Shown here piece by piece: positions 29,066-61,363 of a stretch of 64,000 nucleotides of DNA; position 1 is the first letter of the stretch, and every line of letters starts with the position of its first letter. Made by a program: the position numbers and the translations under genes. Origin of the DNA: a virus; the IMG/VR virus record IMGVR_UViG_3300020187_000009, positions 1-64,000 of that record, one strand, 5' to 3'. Below the pieces are notes generated by a model that worked only from the letters and a program-made list of their open reading frames with translations, was not told where the DNA came from and did no database searches.

Positions 29066-30814
29066 ATGAAATTTAAAAAAGTTTTACTATTCGAAGAACT
29101 TCAAAACCAAGAAGCAACTCAAACTAGACCTTCTGCTGATTCTAACACATCGAGCTCTGAGGTTAAAGTAGGAGATTCTAAAAAAGAAGCAATCAGAGAC
29201 GTCGACAATATTTTATTAAACCTTAAAAAGCTATCAGCAAGTATTGTTGAGGATATAGAAATGTCAGAAGAAGATTCAGTAATTGAAGATTTTGCCAATT
29301 CTATATTTTATATTTCTTCATCTCTCTTAGAAGATAATACTGGTAATAGATTATTTAGTGAATCAGTAGTTACTGAAGCTTCAGGAGATTTAAAAGTTGG
29401 AGATACTGGTGTCGATTATAATGACAACGTTGTAGAAATAATTGCTATTGGTAGATTTGCTAAAATTGCTAAAATGTTTAAGAAAGAAACAAAAGAAGAT
29501 GCTGAAGATTATGGGATTGAAGAATTAATGGTAAATACAGATTATTATCTTACTAAAAATATTGAATCACCTGAAGGTAATGTTGGAGATTATTACATTT
29601 ATCCAGTAAGATATGATATGGCTAATTACTGGGGATTAGATCCTCTAGACGAATCAGTAGTTAACGAAGCTAAATTTAAAAAAGGACAGTATATTAAAGC
29701 CAAAAAAGATAGCGATAATTTTGATGGAGATGTTTATGATAAAACTAACGACGTTGATGGATCTGAAATCTTAAAAAACTCATCGTTCGAAATTTACGAA
29801 ATTGGTAAAGATGAAGTTATTCTTTGGAGTGATGCGGATGAAGTGGAATACTCTATAGATCCAGATGATCTTAAGAATTTCGTAAAGGAATCAGTAGTTA
29901 CTGAAGCTGATGGCGCAATGAAAAGTGCAATTGATTTTATGATTAGAGCACCTAAGGCTAGAAAGGCCCAAGATAAAGTTAATAAGCTAAAATTAAAAAT
30001 TGCAGGTATGGAAGCATCAATAGCAGCATCTGATGCTGAGAAGCCTGTAAAAGATAAGCTTAAGGCGAAGGTAGACATGATGAAGGCGCAATCTAAAGAC
30101 TTACAATCTTCTGTAAATGACAGATGGGATGATAAGGGCAATATTGTTAAAAAAGCAAAACAATCTGAAAAGATTAAAGGAGAGCTATCCGTTCTTAAAA
30201 CTGCAATGGGTGAAGAAGGTTCAGATAAGGGCGAACTTAAAAAAACAGCGGCTAACTTAAAGGCAAGACTTCGCGATGAAGAAAGTGCGTTAAAGGATAT
30301 GGAACCTAATAAAGAAGAACAAGCAGATGCTGTTGATCAATTAAAGAAAGAAAAAGAAGCTAAGGAAAAAGAAGCTAAGGAAAAAGAAGCGGCAAAGGAC
30401 AAAGGAACTAGCGGTAAAGACAAAGGAACTAGCGGCAAGGACGAAGGAACTTCAGGTAAAGACAAAGGAACTAGCGGCAAGGACAAAGGAACTTCAGGTA
30501 AAGACAAAGGAACTAGCGGCAAGGACGAAGGAACTTCAGGTAAAGACAAAGGAACTAGCGGCAAGGACGAAGGAACTTCAGGTAAAGACAAAGGAACTAG
30601 CGGCAAGGACAAAGGAACTAGCGGCAAGGACGAAGGAACTTCAGGTAAAGACAAAGGAACTAGCGGCAAGGACAAAGGAACTTCAGGTAAAGACAAAGGA
30701 ACTTCAGGTAAAGACAAAGGAACTTCAGGTAAAGACAAAGGAACCTCAGGTATAAATGATTCAGTATATGTTAACGAATCAGTAGCACAAAAATTTAAAA
30801 GACTAATGAAATAA
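29066..30814 (+). CDS. Late polyprotein with repeated ESVVTEA sites and a KDKGTSG repeat tail
   Basis: 582 residues. It starts MKFKKVLLFEELQNQEA, a variant of the capsid-targeting leader. Three near-identical sites, ESVVTEAS (about 99), ESVVNEAK (about 196) and ESVVTEAD (about 275), fit a (hydrophobic)-x-Glu/Ala protease pattern and divide the chain into about 100-residue domains, followed by a helical Lys/Glu region. Residues 444-562 are 17 copies of KD(K/E)GTSG. The C-terminus is NESVAQKFKRLMK. Probably cut in the head into several internal proteins plus a flexible basic/acidic tail. No enzymatic motif is recognised. Confidence 0.8.
   Translation: MKFKKVLLFEELQNQEATQTRPSADSNTSSSEVKVGDSKKEAIRDVDNILLNLKKLSASIVEDIEMSEEDSVIEDFANSIFYISSSLLEDNTGNRLFSESVVTEASGDLKVGDTGVDYNDNVVEIIAIGRFAKIAKMFKKETKEDAEDYGIEELMVNTDYYLTKNIESPEGNVGDYYIYPVRYDMANYWGLDPLDESVVNEAKFKKGQYIKAKKDSDNFDGDVYDKTNDVDGSEILKNSSFEIYEIGKDEVILWSDADEVEYSIDPDDLKNFVKESVVTEADGAMKSAIDFMIRAPKARKAQDKVNKLKLKIAGMEASIAASDAEKPVKDKLKAKVDMMKAQSKDLQSSVNDRWDDKGNIVKKAKQSEKIKGELSVLKTAMGEEGSDKGELKKTAANLKARLRDEESALKDMEPNKEEQADAVDQLKKEKEAKEKEAKEKEAAKDKGTSGKDKGTSGKDEGTSGKDKGTSGKDKGTSGKDKGTSGKDEGTSGKDKGTSGKDEGTSGKDKGTSGKDKGTSGKDEGTSGKDKGTSGKDKGTSGKDKGTSGKDKGTSGKDKGTSGINDSVYVNESVAQKFKRLMK
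30395..30751 (+). repeat. 17 tandem 21-base repeats encoding KD(K/E)GTSG
   Basis: Uninterrupted array of 21-base units alternating between GGAACTAGCGG and GGAACTTCAGG codon forms, with K or E at the third residue. Prone to length change by slippage. Confidence 0.95.
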
Positions 30815-49351: not shown

Positions 49352-49422
49352 TGGAAGATGAAATTATATTTTGGGACGATCAATGGAATGTTGACTCCCA
49401 ACCAACTGCTGCTAATTGTTAA
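49351..49422 (+). CDS. Possible 23-residue peptide
   Basis: ATG overlaps the stop of the preceding gene (TAATG), which would allow coupling. The peptide MEDEIIFWDDQWNVDSQPT... is very acidic with two Trp. It ends inside the 80-base promoter element. Too short to be sure it is made. Confidence 0.25.
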   Translation: MEDEIIFWDDQWNVDSQPTAANC

Positions 49423-49490
49423 TAACTTTTTAAAATCATTTCAACAAAAGTTTTTTATATCAATAAAATTGATTATATTTAACTATAATT
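49415..49490 (+). promoter_or_regulatory. Early-type promoter element, diverged copy
   Basis: ATTGTTAATAACTTTTT at the left, AAAAGTTTT in the middle and TGATTATATTTA then ACTATAATTA at the right, as in the four 80-base copies downstream. Ends seven bases before the gene at 49498. Confidence 0.65.
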
Positions 49491-49497
49491 AAAAAAT

Positions 49498-49821
49498 ATG
49501 AAAAAGATAATTACAATAGCAGCATTAGTATTTAGTATGAATGCAATGTCTCAAGAAGTTTACATTCCAAATGCATTTACACCTAATGGTGATGGCATTA
49601 ATGATACATGGAAACCAGAGTTTGGAGATACCCTTAATGTTAAAGATTACAATTTAGAAATCTATGATAGGTCAGGTATTCAAGTATTTCAGTCAAGTAA
49701 TCCAAATGTTTGGTGGGATGGTTTACCTTTTGATACAATATATGTTTATAGATTTTATATGAAATGTAGAGGATATAATGAAGCTATCATTAAAAGTGGA
49801 AGTATAACTGTAATACATTAA
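49498..49821 (+). CDS. Secreted protein made of a signal peptide and a T9SS type B sorting-domain-like fold
   Basis: 107 residues. MKKIITIAALVFSMNAMSQ is a clear signal peptide. The rest reads as the gliding-motility-associated C-terminal (type B T9SS sorting) domain: YIPNAFTPNGDGINDTW near 21-37, then LEIYDRSGIQVFQSS near 54, WWDGLPFD near 73, YVYRFYMKC and a final SGSITVIH. In host proteins this domain sits behind a large cargo and directs export through the type IX system, partner SprF. Here no cargo exists. It stands behind an early-type promoter element. It could compete for the T9SS machinery or cover the surface; a host-derived fragment is another reading. Confidence 0.85.
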   Translation: MKKIITIAALVFSMNAMSQEVYIPNAFTPNGDGINDTWKPEFGDTLNVKDYNLEIYDRSGIQVFQSSNPNVWWDGLPFDTIYVYRFYMKCRGYNEAIIKSGSITVIH

Positions 49822-49855: not shown

Positions 49856-50536
49856 ATGAAGATAACATGTATATCAGATACTCACACTAAGCATAAGCAA
49901 TTAGATTTGCCTGGTGGAGATTTACTAATTCATGCTGGGGATATAATGAATAGTGGTTATAGCAAATCAGATATCCATGCATTCTGTGAATGGTTTGGAG
50001 CACAAGATTACAAACATAAAATCTTTATTGCAGGTAATCATGACCGAATGTTTGAAAATCATCCATTAGAAGCAAATACAATTGTAAACGACTATGATGT
50101 TACTTATTTACAAGATGAGCAATTAGATTTATGGGATGAGGAGGACCAACAATTAGTTATTTATGGAACTCCTTGGCAACCTGAATTTTGTAATTGGGCA
50201 TTTAATCTTCCTAGAAATGGTAAAGAACTTGAAGAAAAGTGGAATGCAATCCCAAAAGATACAGATATTCTTATTACACATGGACCACCACAAGGTCATT
50301 TAGATATTAGTGGTCCTCCATATAATGAAGGAAATCTTGGTTGTGAATTGTTAAGAGTTAAGGTAGATAATCAACCACCAAAGGTTCATGTATTTGGGCA
50401 TATTCACGGAAGTTACGGTTATAAATTCCACAATGGTACACATTTCATTAATGCATCAGTATTAAACGAAAGATATGACCAAGTAAATAAGCCAATAACT
50501 ATAGATTGGGATCCTGAATCAAATATATTATTCTAA
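49856..50536 (+). CDS. Calcineurin-like metallophosphoesterase
   Basis: 226 residues with all five metal-site motifs: CISDTHTKH near 5, LIHAGDIMNSG near 24, IAGNHDRM near 57, LITHGPPQGHLD near 141 and FGHIHGSYG near 180. The size and the THGPPxGHLD motif resemble the bacterial/eukaryotic MPPED-like phosphoesterases. The substrate is unknown; a phosphodiester such as a cyclic nucleotide would fit, which would matter for host signalling. It follows the T9SS-like gene by 34 bases on the same probable transcript. Confidence 0.88.
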   Translation: MKITCISDTHTKHKQLDLPGGDLLIHAGDIMNSGYSKSDIHAFCEWFGAQDYKHKIFIAGNHDRMFENHPLEANTIVNDYDVTYLQDEQLDLWDEEDQQLVIYGTPWQPEFCNWAFNLPRNGKELEEKWNAIPKDTDILITHGPPQGHLDISGPPYNEGNLGCELLRVKVDNQPPKVHVFGHIHGSYGYKFHNGTHFINASVLNERYDQVNKPITIDWDPESNILF

Positions 50537-51384: not shown

Positions 51385-52062
51385 ATGCGTTATTTAAGTA
51401 TAGATATCGAGACGACAGGTCTAGATCCTAAAACATGCCAAGTGCTTAGCATTGGAGCAGTAATAGAAGATACGAATAATATAGAACATATTGAAGATTT
51501 GCCAAAATTCCATGGAGTGATTAGTCAAATAAATATTAGTGGAGATGCATACGCAATTGATATGAATCGAGACTTAATATCTAATATTGTAGAATATCAA
51601 GGCATTAATAATTATGGAGATAGGTCTAATCTGGAAAAAACAACTGGCATGAAATTCTACAATAATCACGAGATTGTAGAAGAATTTTATTATTGGCTAG
51701 CCGCTAATGGTTTTACAGAACTTGGAAAATCTCAGTATACTACAACAAGTCGAGATGGACTTCCAGCACCAATGATTACAAATAAGACAAAGCCAGTAAA
51801 TATCACAGCCGCTGGTAAAAACTTTGGAACATTCGATCTCAAATTCTTAGAGCAACTCCCAAGATGGAAGCAATTAGTAAGAGTACGCCAAAGAATCTTA
51901 GATCCTAGCATTTTATATACTAATTGGGTAGATGATGAAAGTTTACCTAGCCTTTCAACATGCAAGCAACGTGCTAATTTACCAGGAGATGTTGCACATG
52001 ATGCACTAGAAGATGCGAAGGATGTAATAATGTTACTAAGAAAAGAATACTGTAATCCTTAA
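51385..52062 (+). CDS. DnaQ-like 3'-5' exonuclease (DexA-like)
   Basis: 225 residues. DEDDh motifs: LSIDIETTGLDPKT near 4 (ExoI), KNFGTFDLKFLEQ near 146 (ExoII) and VAHDALEDAKDVIML near 209 (ExoIII with His). T4 DexA (227 residues) is of the same size and type. It may degrade host or single-stranded DNA or trim ends. Stop lies at the left edge of an early-type promoter element. Confidence 0.85.
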   Translation: MRYLSIDIETTGLDPKTCQVLSIGAVIEDTNNIEHIEDLPKFHGVISQINISGDAYAIDMNRDLISNIVEYQGINNYGDRSNLEKTTGMKFYNNHEIVEEFYYWLAANGFTELGKSQYTTTSRDGLPAPMITNKTKPVNITAAGKNFGTFDLKFLEQLPRWKQLVRVRQRILDPSILYTNWVDDESLPSLSTCKQRANLPGDVAHDALEDAKDVIMLLRKEYCNP

Positions 52063-52140
52063 TTGTTAATAACTTTTTGAAAATAAATCACTAAAAGTTT
52101 TACCGATTCATTTTAAATGATTATATTTATACTATAATTA
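52061..52140 (+). promoter_or_regulatory. Early-type promoter element, 80-base copy
   Basis: One of four nearly identical copies (52061, 55271, 55586, 59981). All have AATTGTTAATAACTTTTTG at the left, TCATTTTAAATGA (inverted repeat) and TGATTATATTTATACTATA at the right. The gene starts 12 bases later at 52152. Confidence 0.75.
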
Positions 52141-52151
52141 AAAAACAAACA

Positions 52152-54755: not shown

Positions 54756-55271
54756 ATGAAAAGATTTGTAATTTCTAACCTACAGATAGGTAGGCCATCT
54801 GCTATTAAAAAGTATAACCGTCCATTTAAGAATGTTGACGAAATGGATAAAAAGATTATTCAAACATGGAATAGTATTGTCGGAAAAGATGACCTTGTAT
54901 ATCATCTTGGTAATTTTGCATGGGATCCTAAAACAGCACAAGATGCCATAAGCAAGCTTAATGGTACGATTTGGTTTATTGCTGGAGAACATGATAAGCC
55001 CATATTGGAGCTAGCGACAAAAAACATGTTAACGGATAATAGCAAACTAAACCCACCAATTATGCCGCTTCATAAAATGGAAGTTACTATATCTTATTGG
55101 CCTCTTTTAGATTGGCCTGAAAAGAATAATGGGTATTGGTCTATTATTGGAAACCCAGATCCTAAACATAGGTCAGATCCTAAAGAAAGAAGAATTAATG
55201 TTTCTGCCGATTTATGGAAGTTTAAGCCACAGGAACTACAGAAAGTGGTTGGTATATTTCAAGATTTGTAA
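54756..55271 (+). CDS. Degenerate metallophosphoesterase-like protein
   Basis: 171 residues with the layout of phage/bacterial phosphoesterases: NRPFKNVDEMDKKIIQTWN, then VYHLGNFAWD and WFIAGEHDKP. But the metal ligands are replaced: ISNLQIG for SDxHxG, HLGNF for HLGDF, GEHD for GNHD, and IGNPDPKH instead of GHxH. So the fold is kept while catalysis is probably lost. It may have a binding or decoy role. An early-type element follows the gene. Confidence 0.8.
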   Translation: MKRFVISNLQIGRPSAIKKYNRPFKNVDEMDKKIIQTWNSIVGKDDLVYHLGNFAWDPKTAQDAISKLNGTIWFIAGEHDKPILELATKNMLTDNSKLNPPIMPLHKMEVTISYWPLLDWPEKNNGYWSIIGNPDPKHRSDPKERRINVSADLWKFKPQELQKVVGIFQDL

Positions 55272-55350
55272 ATTGTTAATAACTTTTTGAAAATAATTCA
55301 CCAAAAGTTTTCAGGATTCATTTTAAATGATTATATTTATACTATAATTA
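55271..55350 (+). promoter_or_regulatory. Early-type promoter element, 80-base copy
   Basis: Same 80-base sequence as at 55586 except for two bases (CAG for CCC in the centre). Start codon 15 bases after its end. Confidence 0.75.
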
Positions 55351-55365
55351 AAAAACGTACAAGAT

Positions 55366-55587
55366 ATGTCAACAGAATTAAAATCACTTAAAGGTAAGAA
55401 TTGGAACGAAGAAGCTTCTGAATTTGAAAACACTGAAATGTCATTGACAAGATTCAGTGGAGGTAAAGAAGGTATGAAACTTCAATTAACAATGAGAAAT
55501 AATGGAACCTTTTTTACAACTATTGCTCTTAATAAAAAAGAGATTAAAAAGTTAATCAAAGAACTTCAAGAAAACTTTGAACTTTAA
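55366..55587 (+). CDS. Small early-type protein between two promoter elements
   Basis: 73 residues: LKSLKGKNWNEEASEFENTE, then MKLQLTMRNNGTFFTTIALN and KKEIKKLIKELQENFEL. One small beta sheet followed by a helix. It has its own 80-base element in front and another right behind, so it is a single-gene unit. No family recognised; an early host-takeover protein would fit. Confidence 0.65.
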   Translation: MSTELKSLKGKNWNEEASEFENTEMSLTRFSGGKEGMKLQLTMRNNGTFFTTIALNKKEIKKLIKELQENFEL

Positions 55588-55665
55588 TTGTTAATAACTT
55601 TTTGAAAATAATTCACCAAAAGTTTTCCCGATTCATTTTAAATGATTATATTTATACTATAATTA
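55586..55665 (+). promoter_or_regulatory. Early-type promoter element, 80-base copy
   Basis: Begins inside the stop codon of the previous gene and ends 18 bases before the ECF sigma gene. Nearly identical to the copies at 52061, 55271 and 59981. Confidence 0.75.
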
Positions 55666-55683
55666 AAAAACAAACATATACTT

Positions 55684-59974: not shown

Positions 59975-59980
59975 ATGTGA

Positions 59981-60060
59981 AATTGTTAATAACTTTTTGA
60001 AAATAAATCACCGAAAGTTTTCCCGATTCATTTTAAATGATTATATTTATACTATAATTA
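59981..60060 (+). promoter_or_regulatory. Early-type promoter element, 80-base copy
   Basis: Fourth close copy of the 80-base element, right after a terminator and 13 bases before the DNA ligase start. Confidence 0.78.
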
Positions 60061-60073
60061 AAAATAAAACAAA

Positions 60074-61363
60074 ATGACAGACTTACAATTAATTTATGAT
60101 TTCGTTGAACAATCAAACACAACTAACTCAAACACAGACAAGCTTGATGTATTAAAGACGTACACCCAGTATGATAGCGTTAAGAAGGCTCTTCTATATA
60201 CTTATGATACTTATAAGCAATATGGAGTAACTTCTAAGAACTGTAAAAAGAATTCAGATCTTATGGGTCATCCAAATACTTATGGAGATTTCTTCGGTTT
60301 ATTAGATGACTTAAATAATAGAGTTTGTACAGGACATGCTGCAATTGCAAACGTCAATAGATTTGTACAAGAGAACTATGTATACGCAGATCTTATTTGG
60401 AATATTATTGATAGAAACCTAAAGACACGTTCTACGACTTCTATGATTAACAAAGTAGTTCCAGGGTTAATTCCAACGTTTGACGTAGCGTTAGCAAACA
60501 CATATAACGAAAAAACCTCAAAGAAAGTAGATTGGAATGATAACTGGTACGTTAGCCGCAAATTAGATGGTGTTCGTTGTTTAACAATAATTGACGAGAT
60601 TGGAAATGTTAATTTCTTTAGTAGAGCTGGAAAGCCGTTCTTAACATTAGATTCTTTAAAGCCTTCTATTCAGAAATTAGGACTTACAAATATGGTTATT
60701 GATGGAGAGATTTGTATGACTGATAAAGATGGAAACGAAGATTTTCAAGGAATTATTAAAGAGATCAAGAGAAAAGATCACACAATCGAAAATCCTGTAT
60801 ATTTTATGTTTGATCTATTAACATTAACAGAGTTTAACGAAGAAGTATCTACATCACTTCTAAGTGAAAGACTAGAATCTCTTAAATCTATATCATTAGA
60901 CAATAAATTTATCAAGGTATTAGACCAGAGAATAGGAAGCGATGATCTACTAGAAGATATGATGGAGATCTCTAAGAACGAGGGTTGGGAAGGACTAATG
61001 TTACGCAAAGATGATACCTATCAAGGAAAACGTTCTAATGATATTCTTAAAGTTAAGAAATTCTTTGATGACGAATACGTTGTTGTAGATCTTGAAAACG
61101 CAGTAAATAGAGTTATTGTAGAAGGAAAAGAGGTTGATGAGTTAATGCTCAAAAATGTTGTGGTTGAACATAAAGGAAACAGGGTTCAAGTTGGCTCTGG
61201 ATTTTCTCACGAACAAAAAAGATACTTCTTTGAAAACCCTGATCAAATCTTAGGAAAAACAATAACAGTGCAGTACTTCGAAACCACAAAGAACGATAAA
61301 GGAGAAGAATCGTTAAGATTTCCAGTAATGAAAGGAATTTACGAAGGAGAAAGGACATTTTAA
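60074..61363 (+). CDS. 30: ATP-dependent DNA ligase (gp30-like)
   Basis: 429 residues; T4 gp30 is 487. Nucleotidyltransferase motifs are intact: motif I SRKLDGVR near 161-168 with the adenylated Lys, motif III YFMFDLLTL near 242, motif IV EGLMLRKDD near 306 and motif V LKVKKFFDDEY near 326; an OB-fold C-terminus ends KGIYEGERTF. It seals nicks in replication and repair. It has an early-type promoter element. Confidence 0.95.
   Translation: MTDLQLIYDFVEQSNTTNSNTDKLDVLKTYTQYDSVKKALLYTYDTYKQYGVTSKNCKKNSDLMGHPNTYGDFFGLLDDLNNRVCTGHAAIANVNRFVQENYVYADLIWNIIDRNLKTRSTTSMINKVVPGLIPTFDVALANTYNEKTSKKVDWNDNWYVSRKLDGVRCLTIIDEIGNVNFFSRAGKPFLTLDSLKPSIQKLGLTNMVIDGEICMTDKDGNEDFQGIIKEIKRKDHTIENPVYFMFDLLTLTEFNEEVSTSLLSERLESLKSISLDNKFIKVLDQRIGSDDLLEDMMEISKNEGWEGLMLRKDDTYQGKRSNDILKVKKFFDDEYVVVDLENAVNRVIVEGKEVDELMLKNVVVEHKGNRVQVGSGFSHEQKRYFFENPDQILGKTITVQYFETTKNDKGEESLRFPVMKGIYEGERTF

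Follow-up and report, generated by a model that had tools for sequence, protein, structure and literature searches.

A stand-alone type B T9SS C-terminal domain encoded by a T4-like phage, a possible decoy of host adhesin export

The stand-alone CTD gene and its product

The gene under study occupies positions 49498–49821 (+) of the window, i.e., the whole 64,000-nt stretch of DNA that was analysed, which belongs to an IMG/VR virus record of 148,784 bp (G000). It starts with an ATG at 49498, ends with a stop codon at 49819–49821 and comprises 107 codons, with the reading frame opening no more than three codons upstream of the ATG (open frame of 110 aa). On the basis of HMM matches, an AlphaFold2 model and dN/dS values, the product, MKKIITIAALVFSMNAMS followed by QEVYIPNAFTPNGDGINDTWKPEFGDTLNVKDYNLEIYDRSGIQVFQSSNPNVWWDGLPFDTIYVYRFYMKCRGYNEAIIKSGSITVIH, is predicted to be a secreted stand-alone type B C-terminal domain (CTD) of the type IX secretion system (T9SS). 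The window gene is the only CHU_C copy in the 148,784-bp record.

The first 18 residues (MKKIITIAALVFSMNAMS, followed by QE; 49498–49551, +) look like a strong signal peptide. Its end was predicted between S18 and Q19 by eye and from hydrophobicity, and this segment appears in the AlphaFold2 model as a disordered or low-confidence helix. The CTD encompasses residues 22–107 (49561–49818, +). Only about three residues, the sole part of the mature chain outside the CTD, separate the signal peptide from the start of this domain and no passenger domain is present between them. An earlier note, made from the sequence alone, had described a 107-residue product at this position composed of a signal peptide and a CTD with nothing attached; the ORF and all of the motifs quoted there were found as described, and so was this organisation, given the signal peptide predicted by eye and hydrophobicity.

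The note had also assigned the domain to type B and had proposed HMM searches and structure prediction as checks. The window protein scored 52.6 bits (E = 5e-14) against Pfam PF13585 (CHU_C) and 43 bits against TIGR04131 (Bac_Flav_CTERM), above the curated cut-offs of 27 and 35 bits, respectively. AlphaFold2, run with 23 window and locus sequences, gave for this protein a confident Ig-like beta sandwich spanning residues ~21–107 (block pLDDT 91–98). The second PDB match in Foldseek was 8glk_D, the CTD of NucA bound to the F. johnsoniae T9SS, with a modest score (TMt 0.63, E = 9.5e-3), and a profile of the stand-alone relatives found the CTD of Aureispira GhpA (9flp, E = 5e-9). A PHROG search with the window protein gave no convincing match (best E = 0.23), and phmmer against the PDB with the window sequence alone as a query returned nothing useful. 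Matches to Vibrio phages in tblastn (E = 0.09) were rejected as chance.

Among the conserved CTD motifs, the core PNAFTPNGDGIND (residues 24–36; 49567–49605, +) and WxG (WWDG, residues 72–75; 49711–49722, +) are present in the window protein, and P24, P29, G31, D32, N35 and D36 of the core are unchanged in all stand-alone relatives compared. The comparison of CTDs placed DRSG (residues 57–60; 49666–49677, +) at the position of the NRWG motif, with Ser59 in place of the usual Trp. The final beta strand SITVIH (residues 102–107; 49801–49818, +), apparent from the sequence and the AlphaFold2 model, has His in place of the terminal R/K.

Genes of the T4 type coding for the major head protein, sheath, tube, terminase and portal were identified in the window with the use of PHROGs, a content that marks the carrier as a T4-like phage. 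The nearest relatives of its capsid and terminase belong to huge uncultured phages, Prevotella Lak phages and phages of Tenacibaculum and Flavobacterium, from which a Bacteroidota host can soundly be inferred. Contamination with host DNA was rejected, as the window represents a T4-like phage and the relatives of the CTD gene lie among phage genes. No CHU_C domain was found in six known relatives of the phage (LR756500, PTm1, MaF61, PAU, LR756504 and Lak-A2), which indicates that the CTD gene is accessory and dispensable. Elsewhere in the window, the ORF at 29066–30814 (+) contains a long GTSGKDK repeat tract (region 30337–30738).

Promoter element and neighbouring genes

The CTD gene is preceded by a copy of a promoter-like 95-nt element (49408–49496, +), the end of which is located 2 bp before the ATG. 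An nhmmer model trained on 10 other sites, with this one left out, assigned it 43.6 bits (E = 3e-12), and the best score in the reversed genome used as a control was 11.1 bits. The element, TTGTTAATAAC...AAAAGTTTT...GATTATATTTATACTATAATTAAAA, occurs at 21 genomic sites, nearly all of them 1–13 bp upstream of the starts of small accessory genes; it also precedes the gene of a sigma-70 family factor (55684) and a gene at 60074. Its sites include 52056–52151, 55267–55361, 55583–55676 and 59976–60070. A second motif, GATATATA, was detected up to ~60 bp (mostly 22–38 bp) upstream of many genes, including those of the tail sheath (40103) and tail tube (43037). The CTD gene carries the element of the accessory-gene class, distinct from the GATATATA motif of the structural genes. 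The early-type promoter claimed in the earlier note is thus a real recurrent element, and the gene sets that it precedes suggest an early or middle class. The window's element was not found upstream of the CTD genes of the relatives.

At 49856–50536 (+) lies a gene encoding a metallophosphoesterase (Pfam Metallophos, E = 3e-13), a match to the PADLOC candidate defence family PDC-S10 (E = 1.5e-80), which may be a co-transcribed partner of the CTD gene. Its homologues were also found near the stand-alone CTD in two related viral loci (L006 and L013), the three strongly matching loci representing one clade. A metallophosphoesterase gene was present within 2.5 kb of the CTD in 3 of 12 other stand-alone loci versus 1 of 51 loci encoding CTDs with cargo. 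Many phages encode metallophosphoesterases, and the PDC families have candidate status only. The linkage of such a candidate anti-phage gene in three phages would fit a role of the CTD in exclusion.

Conservation in phages and scarcity in hosts

Five homologues of equal length were compared, the window protein and those of L012, L013, L014 and L006 (74–56% identity to the window protein). Values of dN/dS between 0.24 and 0.36 were obtained for every pair, and in every pair the mature part was constrained at least as strongly as the signal peptide. Judged by these values, the CTD gene is intact and under purifying selection.

The analysis of viral contigs and phage records revealed 63 distinct proteins with a type B CTD that were complete, and 11 further ones cut at the 5' end. 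The 63 proteins, the window protein and a 107-aa protein of LR745206 (L169) made up the tree set, with 14 stand-alone CTDs and 51 CTDs with cargo; L052 was counted as stand-alone, though just outside the length rule. The earlier note had recommended a search for homologues in other phages; the passenger-less form is conserved there and accounts for 14 of the 65 phage CTD proteins examined, the window protein included. The clade of the window protein contains the stand-alone CTDs of L012, L013, L014, L006, L016 and L017, and other examples come from L003 (a 642-kb phage), L169 (a 635-kb phage), L026, L018 and L044/L051/L052. The TIGR04131 cut-off was exceeded by 7 of 10 stand-alone CTDs tested, the other three scoring 29.6–33.5 versus 35 bits. 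Type B T9SS proteins encoded by phages, with 65 distinct members collected, are widespread, far beyond the single case of Cryophage, the T9SS cargo of which was called unique by its authors (PMC7468147).

Some of these loci have additional features. The 93-aa stand-alone CTD of L018 (4001–4282) contains a lipobox-like LLTMSC sequence; it is probably a lipoprotein, which might hold the CTD at the membrane. Tiny cysteine-rich putative lipoproteins are encoded directly beside the stand-alone CTD gene in L006 (4792–4977 and 5304–5555) and L017 (3666–3998).

Two host loci shorter than 150 aa were found among the best 80 matches to the stand-alone profile. Of the CHU_C frames listed for 12 host genomes, two were shorter than 170 aa, and one of them, 114 aa long, had no long ATG-started ORF. 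A search of 396 Bacteroidota genomes with the window protein as a query listed ~160 frames, each at least 295 aa long apart from two that start 23–31 bases from a contig end, and no credible stand-alone CTD was found among these best-match frames. Stand-alone CTDs are strongly enriched in phages and near-absent in hosts, as judged by best matches, in which rare cases could be missed. Their occurrence in phages that are not related to one another, together with this near-absence from host genomes, suggests that phages use them to interfere with the surface display of the host. The origin from a stand-alone host gene was rejected, with no credible host case among the matches listed.

The Trp of the NRWG motif was present in 50 of the 51 CTDs of phage cargo proteins and in 62 of the 78 CTDs from hosts, but in only 4 of the 14 stand-alone ones. 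In other words, it was missing in 10 of the 14 stand-alone CTDs (Ser59 in the window protein) as opposed to 1 of the 51 phage CTDs with cargo. In the tree of phage CTDs the stand-alone label changed six times, although the alignment of 89 columns is also compatible with a single origin. An independent-pairs test of cargo loss against the loss of the NRWG Trp found one pair on supported branches and had no power. A phylogenetically independent link between the two losses was therefore not retained, as the tree columns were too few, and the numbers given are raw counts. The loss of the NRWG Trp is treated as a lead, a candidate functional signature of stand-alone CTDs.

Possible functions of the stand-alone CTD

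Type B substrates need dedicated SprF-like shuttles, which are stoichiometric, not recycled and, in F. johnsoniae, of low abundance, and overproduced type B CTD fusions were secreted only when the shuttle was co-produced (PMC12618676). Almost all SprF is disulfide-linked to GldK in gliding cells, and this linkage arises only upon the export of SprB and its loading onto SprF (PMC12635249). A search for a PorP/SprF shuttle in the window phage and 19 other phage records gave no hits, and the same search gave 43 hits in four hosts, which served as a positive control. Given such a limited supply of shuttles, a bare CTD that is produced without one of its own should use up those of the host.

Our tentative reading is that the window protein may be a passenger-less type B T9SS substrate acting as a decoy. 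The gene's own promoter would drive production of the CTD outside the late programme; the CTD would pass the inner membrane via Sec and then fold as an Ig-like domain, to be recognised by a host PorP/SprF-like shuttle at the SprA translocon. With no shuttle brought by the phage, each CTD would remove one scarce, non-recycled host shuttle from use, and SprB-like host type B adhesins would then be neither exported nor anchored. Surface adhesins, some of them likely phage receptors, would be stripped or immobilised, with later phages excluded or gliding stopped as the outcome. Flavobacterial phages probably use parts of the gliding machinery as receptors (PMC7345892), and the loss of type B adhesins could in this way exclude later phages. 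In favour of the decoy are also the family match and fold of the CTD, the lack of a passenger in a form that recurs in phages and is near-absent in hosts, the purifying selection, the non-structural promoter class, the persistent binding of type B CTDs to PorP/SprF and the cap role suggested for PG1035 (PMC9143113). A decoy had already been suggested in the earlier note and gains external support from the limiting, non-recycled type B shuttles (PMC12618676). The export, the shuttle binding and every consequence are what we infer.

Several observations count against the decoy. The export of SprB requires all five conserved CTD motifs, A–E (PMC12618676), and with the NRWG Trp lost in the window CTD, the binding of the shuttle itself could be weakened. 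The genomic surroundings of the CTD gene vary from relative to relative: tiny lipoproteins accompany it in L006 and L017, and it is part of a lysis-like cassette in L026. The failure to find the window's promoter element upstream of the relatives' genes and the lack of CHU_C in related Bacteroidota phages weigh in the same direction. Pairs of type B CTDs and shuttles are also fairly specific, so that one CTD may affect one shuttle only. It is possible, though doubtful, that stand-alone type B CTDs are phage-specific T9SS antagonists, i.e., cargo-free viral mimics of the export signal altered at the NRWG position, which would jam adhesin shuttles or the translocon, remodel the surface and exclude rivals.

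The window protein could also be exported normally and stay on its shuttle outside the cell, where the CTD or the empty adhesin site would mask or replace a receptor. Exclusion would then arise from what is displayed and not from a block of export, and only in this respect does the explanation differ from the decoy. Type B CTDs indeed stay attached to the PorP/SprF shuttle at the surface (PMC9143113, PMC12618676), the CTD is mostly intact according to the CHU_C match and the AlphaFold2 model, and phages with a CTD on small Ig-like passengers are common. We nevertheless regard such a cap as unlikely, since a bare 89-residue domain offers little for masking and the window protein has lost the Trp that nearly all phage cargo CTDs keep.

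Operons of another organisation were observed in L022 (1577–4267), L027 (2174–4273), L041 (3169–4803), L042 (2769–4421), L172 (605–3702) and L029 (3686–5763). They encode separately translated PKD/Ig-like proteins, each with a signal peptide and a shared C-terminal tag, I.H[NDYF], beside one protein composed of a signal peptide, an Ig part and a type B CTD. Tagged ORFs numbered 17 (duplicates included) among 1095 phage ORFs versus 0 among 298 host ORFs. The operons resemble an adhesin that has been divided into parts, with a tail of the docking or donor-strand kind. In the model of the tagged Ig protein of L022, the tag was disordered (pLDDT < 50) and uninformative about docking.

A CTD that ferries separately made phage proteins to the surface, in a non-covalent split secreted complex, would be consistent with L022, L027, L041, L042 and L172, in which the CTD protein is found among signal-peptide-bearing Ig-like proteins with a common C-terminal tag, and with the small lipoproteins beside the homologue in L006 and L017. 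For the window protein such an adaptor is improbable, as no tagged protein and almost no other classical secreted protein were found in the window phage and the mature chain has only those ~3 residues beyond the CTD.

In L026 (780–4276) and also in L171, the CTD gene is located in a lysis-like cassette with holin-like, peptidase-like and transglycosylase-like genes. A function in the envelope or in lysis, as an Ig-like periplasmic protein that acts together with holin/spanin-like genes when infection ends, is suggested only by L026. There the CTD gene overlaps by 4 bp the gene of a small coiled-coil protein, which is secreted and has a TM segment at its C-terminus, and holin-like and transglycosylase-like genes lie nearby. 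This function is hardly probable for the window protein: L026 is a distant relative (~38% identity), no lysis gene adjoins the window CTD and the promoter class differs from that of the structural genes.

Highly improbable is a neutral passenger, i.e., a 3'-terminal fragment of an adhesin gene, from a host or a phage, that came to lie behind a signal peptide and has no role, for although CTDs are plentiful in hosts and occur in phages also as 38 long and 12 one-domain versions, the dN/dS of 0.24–0.36 over five phages, the complete signal peptide, the gene's own 95-nt promoter element and the presence of stand-alone CTDs in several phage lineages led us to reject a 3' remnant of a longer gene. 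The HMM hits, the structural match and the rejection of a remnant answer each of the objections that the earlier note had raised against itself.

Comparison with known systems

T9SS and the gliding adhesins exported by it define the surface of much of Bacteroidota, and the receptors of flavobacterial phages probably lie in that machinery. If the decoy reading were true, a viral protein reduced to the export signal would lend itself naturally to silencing or probing a single branch of export, and it would explain one means by which phages of Bacteroidota could keep competitors out. The window protein also opens to direct test the question of whether the supply of type B shuttles is limiting during infection.

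The likeness of the window protein to CTDs of the SprB/PG1035 type consists in scores above both HMM cut-offs, the presence of PNAFTPNGDGIND and WxG, the Ig-like fold and the C-terminal location behind a signal peptide. It differs from them in the lack of a passenger, the replacement of the NRWG Trp by Ser, the phage origin and the absence of PorP/SprF from the genome. Type B cargo is usually genetically linked to a PorP/SprF-like shuttle, but orphans exist.

T9SS sorting domains encoded by phages, a feature shared with the window protein, are known from Cryophage, for the T9SS cargo of which superinfection exclusion has already been speculated (PMC7468147), and from gut phages (PMC6949934). 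The domains of Cryophage are of type A and located on enzymes or a PA14 protein, whereas the window CTD is of type B and without cargo. The same CTD fold is found in the UniProt/BFVD proteins A0A6J5L8Z9, A0A6J5NJX2 and A0A7S9STS8 of tailed phages, named 'gliding motility-associated C-terminal domain'; these are 187–406 aa long with an N-terminal part, whereas the window protein is the CTD alone. The earlier note knew of no described phage T9SS decoy. Phage T9SS cargo had in fact been published (PMC7468147, PMC6949934), and in the published papers searched neither a passenger-less CTD nor a viral T9SS antagonist was found described. The new element therefore appears to be the passenger-less form, with phage T9SS cargo and UniProt-named phage CHU_C proteins already known. 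PG1035 of P. gingivalis, also a type B protein, was suggested to act as a PorP cap, i.e., to occupy its PorP shuttle (PMC9143113). It is a host-encoded protein of ~50 kDa with an N-terminal region and a single cognate PorP, whereas the window protein is a bare CTD encoded by a phage.
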